A stretch of 64,000 bases of DNA, from contig WRAI01000003.1 in NCBI GenBank assembly GCA_009780275.1, positions 1 through 64,000 on the forward strand. Direction: 5' to 3'. The DNA is from Oscillospiraceae bacterium (GTDB lineage Bacteria > Bacillota > Clostridia > Oscillospirales > UBA929). How positions within the stretch are numbered: position 1 is the stretch's first letter; each line of letters begins with the position of its first letter. Of the stretch, positions 20,361-50,133 are shown piece by piece. The translations under genes were made by a program, and so were the position numbers. Under the pieces are notes generated by a model, which was not told where the DNA came from, did not search any database, and was given only the letters and a program-made list of their open reading frames with translations.

Positions 20361-20650
20361 CATTGCATCCACACGCGCTAACCGGGGAGCTGGCGGTGCC
20401 CTGTACCTGCAACCCGCCTTAGCAGGGGCGAATGCCGTCCTAGGAGCGTTGATGTGTTGTCGTGCCGAACACGTGGTGTTGATGAGTCGGTCTTGCGCAA
20501 CGGTGTCCCGTGAACCATGTCAGGCGGGGAACCGAGCAGCATTAAGCGGTGTACAGCGTGTGCCGCAAGGGTGCCGTCTCTGAGCCGGCGATTCGGTAAC
20601 GGGCATATCCGCGTCTTCGAAGAGGGCTGCGCGTGTGGATGGAGTGATGG
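20361..20650 (+). ncRNA. ffs: Signal recognition particle RNA, large Firmicutes type
   Basis: The RNA core of the signal recognition particle, which delivers nascent membrane proteins with Ffh. The Alu-domain sequence GGGGAGCTGGCGGTGCCCTG and CCTGCAACCCGCC at 20394-20425, and the domain IV core at 20515-20545 (ATGTCAGG...CGAGCAGCATTAAG), match the Bacillus scRNA pattern. The 5' segment CATCCACACGCGC pairs with the 3' segment GCGCGTGTGGATG, closing a long stem and setting the ends to within about 10 bases. The extended stem outside it is a likely RNase III site. dnaX-ebfC-recR downstream is the conserved neighbourhood. The 20274-20730 stretch holds nothing else. Confidence 0.93.
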
Positions 20651-35909: not shown

Positions 35910-37247
35910 TCAAGACAACTGCAACAACACGCTCCGCACCGTTTCTGTTGCCAAATTGTCGGGCGTGATATAGCGCCTGGCTGTTTGCGCGTCCATCCCC
36001 GCCTCAACTGCCGTAGTGAGCAACCGCACCGCATGACATGCGCCGTCGCCCATTAAATGCGCACCGATGAGCCGGTTGGTGTTGCTATCCTTTATGATGG
36101 TGACATGCCCGTTACCGGCAAAGCGTTGCGAGTCGGCATACGACAACGGCAATGTTGCCAATCGCGGCTCAATGTCTTTTTTTACAGCCGTCTCCATGGT
36201 ATAGCCGACACTCGCCATCTCCCCCAGCGCCTCCATAAACGTTGGAATAGCGTGATAACGCACCTGTGCCGGCGTACCACACATATTGGCAACGGCAACT
36301 TCTGCTTCGCGATACGCCGTTTGTGCAGTATAGGTCTTGCCGTTGCAATCGCCTGCGGCATAAACAGCAGGCACACTGGTGCGCGCGCGCGCATCGGTCA
36401 CAATCGCACCCTCACTTCGGTGCAATCCAATGCTGGATAGTCCGATACCGCGCGTAACGGGCAATCTATACCGACAAAACAGCACGCGCTCACACTCATA
36501 ACGCACAGCACCGTCAGGCGTGTCAAAAAGCGCAAAGCCGAAACCGACATCGGTCAGCTTTGCTTGTGTGATAATAGTGACGCCCATAGCTTGTAAATGC
36601 CGCATTAAGTTCTCGGTCGTTGTTTGGTCCAATACATCAGCACACGTGATGCGACTGTCGAGCATGGTGACTTTACAACCACCCGCGCTGAGCAATGCCG
36701 CCCATTGCAACGACGGAATATTGGTGCCGACAATCAAAATTGAGGACGGCAGCGCGCCCTGTAACAACGGCTGACCGCTGGTCAGCAGCGTGCCGTATTC
36801 GATGGCATTCATTGCTGACGGCAAATGCGCAATGGCAGGCAATGAGCCTGTCGAAAGCAAAATACGTTTGGCACGCACAACATCACCCTCGCCGCGTAAA
36901 ACAAAACTCTCTTGCGTGGGCGTGTCAAATCCCGCTGACATGCCTCGAAGTTCAACACCTAAACGTTCAAGTGTTTTCTGCTGTTGATCGCGCATAAGGT
37001 CAATGTTCTGCCGTACGCGGTTCATCGCACCCGCCAAATCATACTGCTGCGCACGGTCGAGCGTACGCGCTTGAAACAATGTTAAATCGCGCAGCAACGC
37101 ACCCATCGGCACAGAACCAGCCCTGAAAGTATTGCCGCCTAACTGCGCCTTCTCCAACAAAATGGTAGACATGCCCGCCGACGCGGCCGCTTCCGCCGCT
37201 TTACAGCCGGCCGCGCCGCCGCCTACGATTGCTAAATCATAAACCAT
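35910..37247 (-). CDS. Lipoamide-dehydrogenase-like flavoprotein lacking the redox cysteines
   Basis: 445 residues. The FAD motif DLAIVGGGAAGCKAAEAAA and later YAAGDCNGKTYTAQTAYREA are intact, and an NAD Rossmann motif (ILIVGTNIPSLQWA) lies near 170. The two-cysteine disulfide normally found as GGTCLNxGCIPSK reads GGNTFRAGSVPMG here, with Thr 40 and Ser 45 in place of both Cys. The C-terminal catalytic HPT-x-x-E is also missing (RRYITPDNLATE). It therefore cannot do disulfide chemistry. Another NAD(P)H:flavin function, or a dead regulator, is likely. The start at 37247 has GGGAG 11 bases upstream; an ATG at 37265 overlaps that site. Confidence 0.85.
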   Translation of the reverse strand: MVYDLAIVGGGAAGCKAAEAAASAGMSTILLEKAQLGGNTFRAGSVPMGALLRDLTLFQARTLDRAQQYDLAGAMNRVRQNIDLMRDQQQKTLERLGVELRGMSAGFDTPTQESFVLRGEGDVVRAKRILLSTGSLPAIAHLPSAMNAIEYGTLLTSGQPLLQGALPSSILIVGTNIPSLQWAALLSAGGCKVTMLDSRITCADVLDQTTTENLMRHLQAMGVTIITQAKLTDVGFGFALFDTPDGAVRYECERVLFCRYRLPVTRGIGLSSIGLHRSEGAIVTDARARTSVPAVYAAGDCNGKTYTAQTAYREAEVAVANMCGTPAQVRYHAIPTFMEALGEMASVGYTMETAVKKDIEPRLATLPLSYADSQRFAGNGHVTIIKDSNTNRLIGAHLMGDGACHAVRLLTTAVEAGMDAQTARRYITPDNLATETVRSVLLQLS

Positions 37248-37249
37248 GC

Positions 37250-37278
37250 TTGAACACACTCCCATTTTGCTGTATACT
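37250..37278 (+). promoter_or_regulatory. Promoter of the epimerase gene
   Basis: TTGAAC (37250-37255), 17-base spacer, TATACT (37273-37278), 24 bases before the ATG at 37303. It overlaps the start region of the divergent flavoprotein gene. Confidence 0.6.
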
Positions 37279-37302
37279 TACCCTATCAAAGGGGGAATTA
37301 TC

Positions 37303-38250
37303 ATGAAAATTTTAATGATCGGCGGCACGGGCATCATCAGCACTGCTGTCACTGAATTGCTTGTGACACAAGGATATGATGTCACGCTTGTCCATCGCAA
37401 TGGCCGTGTGCCAAATGTGCGAAACATTCTATGCCCCGTCGAGCAATTGTCCGAACATCTCGGCAATGAAACATTTGACGTCGCTATCAATTGGATTTGC
37501 TATACGCCAGAAGACATGACGCGTGACCTTGCGCAGTTCACAGGCCGCGTGGCGCAATATATCTTTATCAGTTCAACGGTCGTGTATGACCGTCCGACAC
37601 AGCCGTTGCTCGTACGTGAAGATGCACCGCATGTGACAAGAGGCTGGCCATATGCTATGCAAAAATCCGCTTGTGAGCGCATGTTGCAAGAACAATGCTT
37701 GCTGCCGTACACCATCGTACGCCCATCACATACCTATGGACGCGGCAAACTCCCTGCACCTATGGCACAAACCAAACAATATTGGAGCATTGCTGACCGA
37801 TTGTTACGCCGAAAGCCTTTCATCGTGCCGGGCGACGGCACATCAGTATGGACATTAACGCACAGCACCGATTTCGCGCGCGGCTTGTTGCCATTGCTCG
37901 GCAACAAACAAGCACTTTGGCAAGACTATCATCTCACGTCATCCGAATGGTTAACATGGCGGCAAATTCTCGACATTACGGCCAAAGCATTGGGTGTCGA
38001 GGCAATCACTGTGCCGATGTGCAGCGTTGAAATTGAACAACAATTGCCGCAATACCAATACACATTGACCTGCGACAAAGCGTTCAGCGCACTCTTCGAC
38101 AACAGTAAGCGGTTGGCTCTTAATGCGTCAGCAGATGCAGTTATACCATTTGCTGAAGGGATACGCCGCGAACTGGCGTATTATGATGCACATCCTGAAT
38201 GCCGCACGGTCGACAATGCATACAATGCAGCATTGGACTCGCTCTTGTAG
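37303..38250 (+). CDS. NAD-dependent epimerase/dehydratase family protein
   Basis: 315 residues. The start at 37303 has GGGGG 9 bases upstream. The glycine-rich NAD motif is ILMIGGTGIIST. Catalytic Ser/Tyr/Lys of the extended SDR fold are seen as FISSTVVYD and YAMQKSACERML (Tyr-x3-Lys/Gln, where the motif reads YAMQK). TIVRPSHTYGRGKLPAP is the substrate-binding loop. It acts on a nucleotide-sugar or related carbonyl substrate; the exact one is unknown. It is divergent from the flavoprotein gene. Confidence 0.85.
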   Translation: MKILMIGGTGIISTAVTELLVTQGYDVTLVHRNGRVPNVRNILCPVEQLSEHLGNETFDVAINWICYTPEDMTRDLAQFTGRVAQYIFISSTVVYDRPTQPLLVREDAPHVTRGWPYAMQKSACERMLQEQCLLPYTIVRPSHTYGRGKLPAPMAQTKQYWSIADRLLRRKPFIVPGDGTSVWTLTHSTDFARGLLPLLGNKQALWQDYHLTSSEWLTWRQILDITAKALGVEAITVPMCSVEIEQQLPQYQYTLTCDKAFSALFDNSKRLALNASADAVIPFAEGIRRELAYYDAHPECRTVDNAYNAALDSLL

Positions 38251-48008: not shown

Positions 48009-48037
48009 TTGACCCCGTCCCTGTGCTGTGCTATACT
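48009..48037 (+). promoter_or_regulatory. galK promoter
   Basis: TTGACC (48009-48014), 17-base spacer, TATACT (48032-48037). The transcript would start near 48044, leaving a 119-base leader. Confidence 0.65.
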
Positions 48038-48043
48038 AATTTC

Positions 48044-48162
48044 ATTATATCGTCGCCGGAAGTCCGGCGTCAATTGCGGCAGGGTTGGCTTTGCCTCCCC
48101 GTCCGCCGATAAAATCAAAAAGGGGGCCCCGCAAAGCCTGCTTTGTGGGGAAATAGCATAGT
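48044..48162 (+). promoter_or_regulatory. Structured galK leader with two alternative stems
   Basis: Three elements can be seen. A hairpin CGCCGG-AAGT-CCGGCG lies near 48056-48071. GGCTTTGC (48087-48094) is exactly complementary to GCAAAGCC (48131-48138). CCCCGCAAAG (48127-48136) can instead pair with CTTTGTGGGG (48141-48150). The last two pairings share GCAAAG, so they exclude each other. In the second, GGGGA, the only ribosome-site-like sequence before the ATG, is hidden. This is the layout of a translational switch, though no ligand or known riboswitch class is recognised. Confidence 0.5.
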
Positions 48163-49443
48163 ATGGCAACTTTACGGGAATGGAAAAAAGCCTTCGAAAA
48201 CGGGCAGTTTGACAAAAAAATCCAGGCACTGTACGGCAACTTATCCGATGGACAGCGCGAGCGTTACATTGACGCGCTCGACCAATTCAAAGCGTTCTAC
48301 GGCGACCGTGATAACATCATCATTGTCACGGCACCAGGGCGCACCGAAATCGGGGGGAATCACACCGACCACAATCACGGCAAAGTGCTGACAGGTGCAG
48401 TCAATCTTGATGTGCTTGCTATCGTTTCGGCGCATGAACAGCCGCTGATTCGCATTCAATCAAAAGGCCATGCCGAAAATCGCGTTGACTTAGGCGATTT
48501 ATCGATACAGCAGAACGAATACGGCCACTCTACTGCTCTTATTCGCGGCATCGCATCTCGATTGCAGTCATTATGCCACAACATTGGCGGATTTGTGGCA
48601 TACACAACCAGTGACGTCACAAGCGGCTCTGGCTTATCGTCTTCCGCCGCATTTGAGGTCTTAGTTGGTTCGATCTTCAACACACTGTACAATGGCAATG
48701 CCATCGACAGCAAAACGCTGGCAAGAACCGGGCAATACGCTGAAAACGAGTATTTTGGTAAGCCGTGCGGACTGTTGGATCAGATGGGCAGCGTTTGCGG
48801 CGGCATTGTTGCCATTGATTTCAAAGACACACAATCTCCCATTGTTGAACAAATCAACTTTGACCTTGCAGCAGCAAACTACGCCATGTGCATCACCATG
48901 GCAGGCGGCTCACATGCTGAACTGACGGGGCATTATACTGCTATTCCAACCGAAATGAAATCTGTTGCCGCAGCATTGGGGAAATCTGTCTTGCGCGAAG
49001 TTTCACCGTGTGATTTTTACGCTAATATCGCTGCCGTCCGCAAGCAATGCGGCGACCGCGCCGTTCTGCGTGCTATACACTTCTTCGCCGATAACGAACG
49101 AGTTGATGGGCAGGTCGATGCCCTGAAAAGCGGCAATTTCGACAAGTTTTTGGCGTTGATTAACGAGTCGGGTTATTCATCCTATATGTACTTACAAAAT
49201 GTATCAACCTATGCTGATAGTGCCGACCAGGAAGTCGCGCTAGCATTGGCGTTGAGCGAGAGTTTGCTGCAAGGCCGCGGCGCAAGCCGTGTACACGGCG
49301 GTGGCTTCGCAGGCACCATTCAAGCATTTGTGCCCAATGATTTGGTGGATAGTTATATCACAGGCATGGACGCACTGCTGGGCGCGGGTAGTTGCAAAGC
49401 GTTGGCGATTCGTGGGGTCGGCCCTGTGGTTTGGAGGTTGTAA
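48163..49443 (+). CDS. galK: Galactokinase-family GHMP kinase
   Basis: 426 residues. Motif 1 GRTEIGGNHTDHNHGKVL (59-75) is the galactokinase signature that binds the sugar. Motif 2 TSGSGLSSSAAFEVL (about 153-167) is the ATP loop, and motif 3 RVHGGGFAGTIQAF closes the site. It phosphorylates galactose at C1. No galT or galE genes flank it. The N-terminus has an extra about 45 residues before motif 1, as in other Clostridial galactokinases. The leader upstream is structured and could control translation. Confidence 0.9.
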   Translation: MATLREWKKAFENGQFDKKIQALYGNLSDGQRERYIDALDQFKAFYGDRDNIIIVTAPGRTEIGGNHTDHNHGKVLTGAVNLDVLAIVSAHEQPLIRIQSKGHAENRVDLGDLSIQQNEYGHSTALIRGIASRLQSLCHNIGGFVAYTTSDVTSGSGLSSSAAFEVLVGSIFNTLYNGNAIDSKTLARTGQYAENEYFGKPCGLLDQMGSVCGGIVAIDFKDTQSPIVEQINFDLAAANYAMCITMAGGSHAELTGHYTAIPTEMKSVAAALGKSVLREVSPCDFYANIAAVRKQCGDRAVLRAIHFFADNERVDGQVDALKSGNFDKFLALINESGYSSYMYLQNVSTYADSADQEVALALALSESLLQGRGASRVHGGGFAGTIQAFVPNDLVDSYITGMDALLGAGSCKALAIRGVGPVVWRL

Positions 49444-49601: not shown

Positions 49602-50133
49602 TCAAAATGCGCCCCACTGCGCCAGCAGGCTCCGCACCTCGCGCCTCGTTTTAACGCGCAAGAACGGTTTGTCTGAGTATTTCTTATGCAAAGCCATCAC
49701 TGTTTTTTTCTTTGTTTTTGGGTATTCCCATATCCATTTGCAGAATGTCAAAAACTCTTTGCTAAACACGCCCCGCTCTTTGAGGTACTCCGGCAAGTCG
49801 GAACGCTTTTTGCCAACTCTCTTCGCCACCGACAGCATACACACAAAGCGGTTTATATCTAAAAATATGACCACCTCTGCCGCCGCAAACCGCAATTCTA
49901 TTGTGCTGCCATAATTGCCATCAATAATCCACCGTTCGCCGCTGATAAGCTCTCGTTGATGCACAATCCATTCTGCTCCGGGCGTTTTCTCCCTCCCATC
50001 CGGGCTTCCAAAACTCGACGTCCAAATGGTGCAACGGATAGCCCGTCAATGCGGCAATTTTCTTAGAAAGCCAACTCTTGCCACTACCGGGACTGCCAAC
50101 AATGGCAATTTTCTTATAATCTTGTATGTTCAT
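49602..50133 (-). pseudogene. Adenylate-kinase-like P-loop protein gene with one frameshift
   Basis: The start at 50133 overlaps the amylase end by 20 bases. Frame 1 has the P loop in KIAIVGSPGSGKSWLSKKIA and runs PLHHLDVEFWKPGWE, the FlaR/'topology modulation' kinase pattern. It then loses the frame in the GGGAGGG run near 49990. The second frame continues exactly as this family does (PGAEWIVHQRELISGERWII, DGNYGSTIELR) to 49602. Deleting one G joins them into a protein of about 176 residues. Such proteins are uncharacterised small NTPases. Either a pseudogene or a one-base assembly error. Confidence 0.75.

Follow-up and report, generated by a model that had tools for sequence, protein, structure and literature searches.

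A possible split, hairpin-interrupted ribosome-binding site ahead of galK, one of a family of related leaders in an Oscillospiraceae genome

How does translation of galK begin in this Oscillospiraceae bacterium, and what does the structured RNA ahead of its start codon contribute? In the 64,000-nt stretch of DNA analyzed here (contig WRAI01000003.1, positions 1 to 64,000; hereafter the window), a promoter-like site would place the start of the galK mRNA near 48044, and the 5' leader that follows, which very likely acts on galK translation initiation, was originally predicted to be a translational riboswitch with two mutually exclusive stems. The features of the locus on which the analysis turns are as follows.

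48009..48037, plus strand: promoter-like TTGACC-17-TATACT with TG, from a consensus scan only (10/12 matches)
48044..48162, plus strand: putative galK 5' leader, from the promoter-like site to the ATG
48049..48074, plus strand: 5' leader hairpin GTCGCCGG-AAG-TCCGGCG, an inverted repeat
48078..48095, plus strand: local hairpin GGCAGGG/CTTTGCC, including GGCTTTGC, in the predicted leader fold
48108..48115, plus strand: conserved GATAAAAT box 5' of the Shine-Dalgarno (SD) site, from the comparison of 13 copies
48119..48126, plus strand: distal extended SD AAAGGGGG, from its pairing with the 16S rRNA 3' end
48127..48150, plus strand: 10-bp hairpin with a CCTG loop in the SD-AUG interval, with covariation in 8 and 13 paralogues
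48147..48151, plus strand: weak proximal SD-like GGGGA, within and beside the 3' arm of the hairpin (-3.2 kcal/mol, aligned spacing 9)
48163..49443, plus strand: galactokinase galK, 426 aa (Pfam PF10509 and PF00288)

Both pairings of the original prediction are present in the sequence, where they share GCAAAG. CCCCGCAAAG (48127-48136) pairs with CTTTGTGGGG (48141-48150) around the CCTG loop, and GGCTTTGC at 48087-48094 is a perfect 8-nt complement of GCAAAGCC at 48131-48138. The hairpin at 48127-48150 appears in the predicted minimum-energy fold of the leader, with a probability of 0.95-0.98, and thereby keeps GGGG (48147-48150) paired; the competing pairing has a probability of 0.016 and costs 2.1 kcal/mol in the folding model. 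In the 118 nt upstream of the 12 other copies of the hairpin described below, the longest complement to the hairpin is 4-5 nt, so that the competition is not a shared feature. Thus, of the proposed mutual exclusion, the complement is real, but the antagonist is weak and confined to galK, and with two conserved exclusive structures not found, we reject the riboswitch as a class. The further claim that no known class is matched agrees with Rfam 15, which at the gathering threshold gave no family match over the leader; a permissive scan gave a single chance-level match near it (E 6.8, minus strand). Elsewhere in the window, at 20373-20634, lies a bacterial large SRP RNA (RF01854, 179.6 bits). The local hairpin at 48078..48095 is as a rule without a counterpart in the other copies, and another pairing is preferred there when a slightly different fragment is folded.

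A different picture emerges from the pairing of the leader with the ribosome. The 3' end of the 16S rRNA of the same genome reads GGATCACCTCCTTTCTAAGGA, and AAAGGGGG, directly 5' of the hairpin and hence outside it, pairs with this end at -9.5 kcal/mol; for GGGGA, which had been taken for the only ribosome-site-like stretch before galK, the figure is -3.2 kcal/mol. One conformation does hide GGGGA, as proposed, in that its four G residues are paired in the hairpin, but the strongest predicted site lies 5' of the hairpin. Among the 54 window ORFs of at least 150 aa, the SD spacing of ordinary genes has its mode at 6-8, and a distal SD of -9 kcal/mol or lower occurs only before galK. The window ORF listed at 37245-38250 has the letters of AAAGGGGG too, as its ordinary proximal SD at spacing 7. 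All of these start codons are predicted, and the scripts used for the window and for galK, parB and yebC favored starts that have a good SD close by.

The galK leader is one member of a family. A search of its own genome (2,093,019 bases, or 2.09 Mb, in 49 contigs) with the leader DNA found five other similar places, and a pattern search gave ten matches, of which eight were leaders and two were dropped, one as a terminator (L041) and one as coding sequence (L044). A covariance model was trained on eight copies, those before galK, thiC, a Clp ATPase gene, dapB, parB, an ArsC/Spx-like gene, the gene at C38:4800 and yebC. Run against the same genome, the model returned 25 rows, with 12 places at E<=1.1e-5, four of them outside the training set (aspS, a small unknown gene at C5:15488, gyrA and a MinD/ParA-family gene), and a 13th copy, C25, that was accepted by eye at E 0.15 and stands before an ORF of no known identity with a TTG start. 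From the other 12 rows, the tRNA-flanked L065 and L066-L068 were read, and two more were places rejected earlier. All 13 copies end 5-12 nt ahead of the predicted start of a same-strand ORF longer than 80 aa, a position test that is not wholly independent of the model, whose last columns cover bases beside the start codon. Most copies are intercistronic: nine of the 13 have a same-strand ORF ending no more than 120 nt upstream of the core, and the thiC copy reaches into the 3' end of a thiD-like ORF. The thiD-like/thiC pair also has a TPP riboswitch upstream (RF00059, L002 2385-2479), the second gene of the pair being the one that carries the cassette.

Read 5' to 3', the cassette consists of a conserved GAUAAAAU box, an extended SD, which is AGAAAGGGG or AAAGGGGG, a hairpin, an A-rich spacer and the start codon. 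The hairpin is as a rule 24 nt, 10 bp with a 4-nt loop, although that of the gyrA copy exceeds this by about 40 nt while its basal arms are similar. The extended SD is present in 12/13 copies, with AGAAAGGGG replacing the AAAGGGGG of galK in several, and in the GATAAAAT box seven of the eight positions are identical in 11-12 of the 13 copies and the remaining one in ten. The genes that carry the cassette are largely housekeeping genes without an evident common function. A promoter reading of GATAAAAT was set aside, as the scan had no promoter-like match there and no shared -35 was seen by eye. We also rejected an antisense terminator, which the scan placed at 48138-48125 on the minus strand, the next plausible minus-strand ORF ending at 49602, beyond galK, and an in-frame GTG/ATG start inside the 3' arm, which occurs at chance level, in only three of the 13 copies (the C38 gene, yebC and aspS).

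Comparison of the copies speaks for the hairpin more strongly than the folding of any single sequence. Against shuffles, the whole leader folds only slightly better (z -1.29, 22 of 200) and its 65-nt core somewhat more so (z -1.97, 7 of 200), and over the copies single-sequence folding is unremarkable, with z from -2.70 to +0.43. In the alignment of the eight copies, 88.8% of the stem cells are paired against 79.1% in shuffles, there are 10 double changes against 3.1, and the covariation score of 0.511 (0.299 shuffled) was reached by 0/500 shuffles; sliding the stem partners lowers the pairing to 44-59%. With all 13 copies the stem pairing is 90.6% against 82.8% and the score 0.463 against 0.301, in an alignment that was fitted to the model and hence leans towards it. 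The covariation check called for at the outset thus bears out the hairpin, across paralogous copies (8 and 13 rows). The gyrA and minD copies have minimum-energy folds unlike the 10-bp model.

The same comparison brings out the spacing of the SD sites. In 12/13 copies, the distal SD pairs with the 16S end at -6.2 to -14.1 kcal/mol, against -3.2 to -6.1 for the usable site in the 3' arm of the same copies. The raw aligned spacing of the distal SD to the start is 31-36 in 12/13 copies (75 in gyrA), and with the hairpin excised the spacing becomes 7-12 nt in 12/13 copies, the C25 copy being the one that fails. A simple balance of initiation for each copy, made up of the pairing, a spacing penalty and the opening cost, favors distal over proximal initiation in 12/13 copies by 4-18 kcal/mol. 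The exception is again C25, where a good distal SD is lacking and the proximal one is strong (-10.9).

The galK leader has the order SD, hairpin and AUG in common with T4 genes 25 and 38, and on that ground we read it as a split, hairpin-interrupted ribosome-binding site, an interpretation to which we give somewhat better than even credence. The 30S subunit would pair with the extended SD, AAAGGGGG or AGAAAGGGG, on the 5' side of the hairpin, and the 24-nt hairpin would stay folded, bringing an SD-AUG distance of ~31-36 nt down to an effective 7-12 nt; the galK leader would then be one copy of a cassette of GAUAAAAU box, extended SD and hairpin that serves ~13 genes. Several features of the family fit such a site: a strong SD at a linear distance that would not function (12/13), a stable and covarying hairpin between SD and AUG, for which the case is weaker in gyrA and minD, and a normal spacing in 12/13 copies once the hairpin is taken out. 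The genome has 13 copies in a common position and orientation before starts, with an extended SD in 12/13 and a covarying stem, and the relatives have plain SDs; our inference is that ribosomes start from the distal SD while the hairpin stays folded, and that no regulator has the hairpin as its target. Two features run against this interpretation. A loop-out mechanism would have no need of the weak proximal SD that the 3' arm always supplies near normal spacing. The distal SD, moreover, is predicted to be more accessible in some copies than in others: folded with its flanks, its G-run is largely paired in thiC, aspS, gyrA and minD and open in clpC and parB. The conservation among copies could also reflect recent common descent. 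As to the GAUAAAAU box, our guesses are an A/U-rich landing stretch or the site of a factor.

The main rival of the split site combines standby with sequestration: the distal AAAGGGGG would hold the 30S subunit while the hairpin acts as a brake, hiding GGGGA, GGAG or GAGGA until it breathes or opens. This would account for the SD-like stretch that each of the 13 copies has in its 3' arm at an aligned spacing of 5-9, and for the strong proximal SD of C25, and standby initiation on structured ribosome-binding sites is established in E. coli, according to the sections of PMC3936740 that deal with it. The energetics are less favorable, as opening the hairpin in the other 12 copies would cost 5-13 kcal/mol against the 3-6 regained by proximal pairing, and a 9-bp SD helix exceeds the strength that a standby site needs; we consider this explanation unlikely. 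A protein or sRNA partner for the galK leader, which the original prediction allowed for, is possible. In its wider form, a trans-acting regulator would bind the hairpin or the GAUAAAAU box, and the ~13 genes would be its regulon. The box is conserved to roughly the same degree as the SD without an evident role, and the cassette is limited to a defined set of largely housekeeping genes, as a regulon would be, but the loop and upper stem are variable, the target genes have no evident function in common and no candidate regulator was identified, which makes such a regulon distinctly improbable.

It could also be argued that the cassette is a dispersed, perhaps mobile short repeat that contributes an SD and is otherwise functionless. 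Further upstream sequence (TCGCCGG...) is common to copies, one upstream piece (L005) sits between convergent ORFs, and the absence of the family from the 17 same-family relatives searched is what recent spread would give. An inert repeat, however, would be expected elsewhere too, and all 13 core copies lie in one orientation, 5-12 nt before a start, so that we give this view little credence. The least credible reading, and one we hardly entertain, is the original one of a galactose-metabolite riboswitch with two exclusive stems. It has in its favor the 8-nt complement and an alternative only 2.1 kcal/mol dearer in the model. Against it stand the low probability of that alternative (0.016) and its absence from the other 12 copies, the lack of an aptamer-like conserved core and of any Rfam match, and the genes downstream of the copies (gyrA, parB, aspS, thiC and others), which are unrelated to galactose and so argue against a galactose ligand. 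The galK start is thus probably a case of unusual initiation and not of switching by a sugar-sensing RNA.

The relatives bear on where the cassette arose. At 29 galK loci from the order, six of them from the same family, a proximal SD is present in 29/29 and a distal one at or below -9 in 2/29; the galK of one same-family genome (G004) has TAGAAAGGG at spacing 7, a similar SD without the hairpin. Plain proximal SDs precede parB in 14/14 relatives and yebC in 15/15, with a distal SD at or below -9 in 0/14 and 0/15. These plain SDs suggest that the cassette was derived in its own lineage. A profile (R1) run on 18 family genomes did not find the cassette in the 17 others, its three weak matches being judged unrelated; L078 was rejected as a copy because it reads as coding sequence, and L077 and L079 because they are other hairpins. 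A second profile (R2), run on 295 order genomes at E<=0.001, matched the own genome 13 times and ten others 11 times in total. Nine of these 11 outside loci were read, and 0/9 lie directly before an ATG-started ORF of at least 90 aa. As a leader family, the cassette was found in no other of the 295 order genomes searched, among which the window's own species was the only one of its genus. When one mismatch is allowed, the hairpin pattern occurs in 6/394 order genomes, including the own, with the outside cases in other settings, and the exact pattern occurs once in viral contigs, in another setting. A plasmid or phage origin was rejected, there being no plasmid match and a single phage match of 26 nt at E 0.3.

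Some of the similar hairpins elsewhere deserve description in their own right. At four loci of order genomes (L168, L171, L172 and L177), a near-identical galK-type hairpin, GGGGTCCCCGCAAAGCCTGCTTTGTGGGG and variants, separates a MobC-like ORF from a relaxase-like ORF; after it come more short palindromes and a conserved GTGTGATGTGACGTGGC-like stretch. With the ORF labels read from translations, this looks like an oriT region. Other genomes carry the hairpin GG(C/T)TCCCGCAAAGCC(T/C)GCTTTGTGGGAAAGAGGAG and its variants at L176, L178, L170, L181 and L186, and a viral contig (L187, 8933-8954) has the hairpin upstream of an ORF resembling a large terminase. The 5' leader hairpin at 48049-48074, CGTCGCCGGAAGTCCGGCG(T)CAATTG, resembles a CGTC-tagged palindrome. 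It recurs in the own genome at L005 1501-1533, in a convergent-ORF interval on contig C7, with 91% similarity over 33 nt, and shorter pieces of it are found upstream of some copies.

It is tempting to picture a dispersing, genome-specific initiation cassette that replaced the ordinary SD of ~13 largely housekeeping genes and left one lineage with shared, possibly co-regulated, hairpin-interrupted starts; we offer this scenario tentatively, and doubt it more than we believe it. An SD parted from its AUG by a hairpin is known from two phage T4 genes (PMC3014915, in the part that treats them), and we found no report of a paralogous family of split sites in a bacterial genome in the open PubMed Central literature. 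If the split-site reading is true, a bacterium routinely uses hairpin-parted SDs before gyrA, parB, aspS and other housekeeping genes, its 13 natural variants could serve to test how a hairpin fits on the 30S platform, and rules based on SD distance would misjudge initiation strength at such genes. Should a common factor read the hairpin or the upstream box, a new translational regulon would be at hand.

Each of the known systems that can be compared with the cassette has some of its elements. Like REP-type repeats, as characterized in the pertinent section of PMC3733652, the family involves short dispersed palindromes, and its upstream piece begins with CGTC before a palindrome, reading CGTCGCCGGAAGTCCGGCG, with one further clear copy in the own-genome searches; unlike them, it has few copies and a core confined to start codons. 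The pairing beyond the core GGAGG recalls the extended SD motifs of Staphylococcus aureus, although there, in the account of these motifs in PMC13009471, a directly adjacent extension lies towards the start codon, while here the extension (AGAAAGG) lies towards the 5' end and the hairpin comes after. In E. coli thrS, a hairpin (-14 to -48) lies between a start-proximal site and an upstream single-stranded region and takes part in autoregulation (Sacerdot et al. 1998, as summarized in PMC3936740). In both cases, going by that summary, the region where the ribosome lands is broken by a hairpin that can be, or in our case would be, accommodated without unfolding, but the thrS hairpin is upstream of the start-proximal site, whereas the one described here is between the strong SD and the AUG. 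T4 genes 25 and 38 are the closest parallel, as far as the passages on them in PMC3014915 go. They are single phage genes, while the predicted cassette comes in ~13 related chromosomal copies with an upstream box and an extended SD. In both systems, however, the SD is parted from the AUG by a hairpin that shortens, or would shorten, the distance, from 22 to 5 nt in gene 38 and from 27 to 11 nt in gene 25, and gene 25, like most of the copies here, has its site at an intercistronic junction. Destabilization of the hairpin lowers initiation in both T4 genes, which makes them a tested precedent for a ribosome-binding site of this kind.
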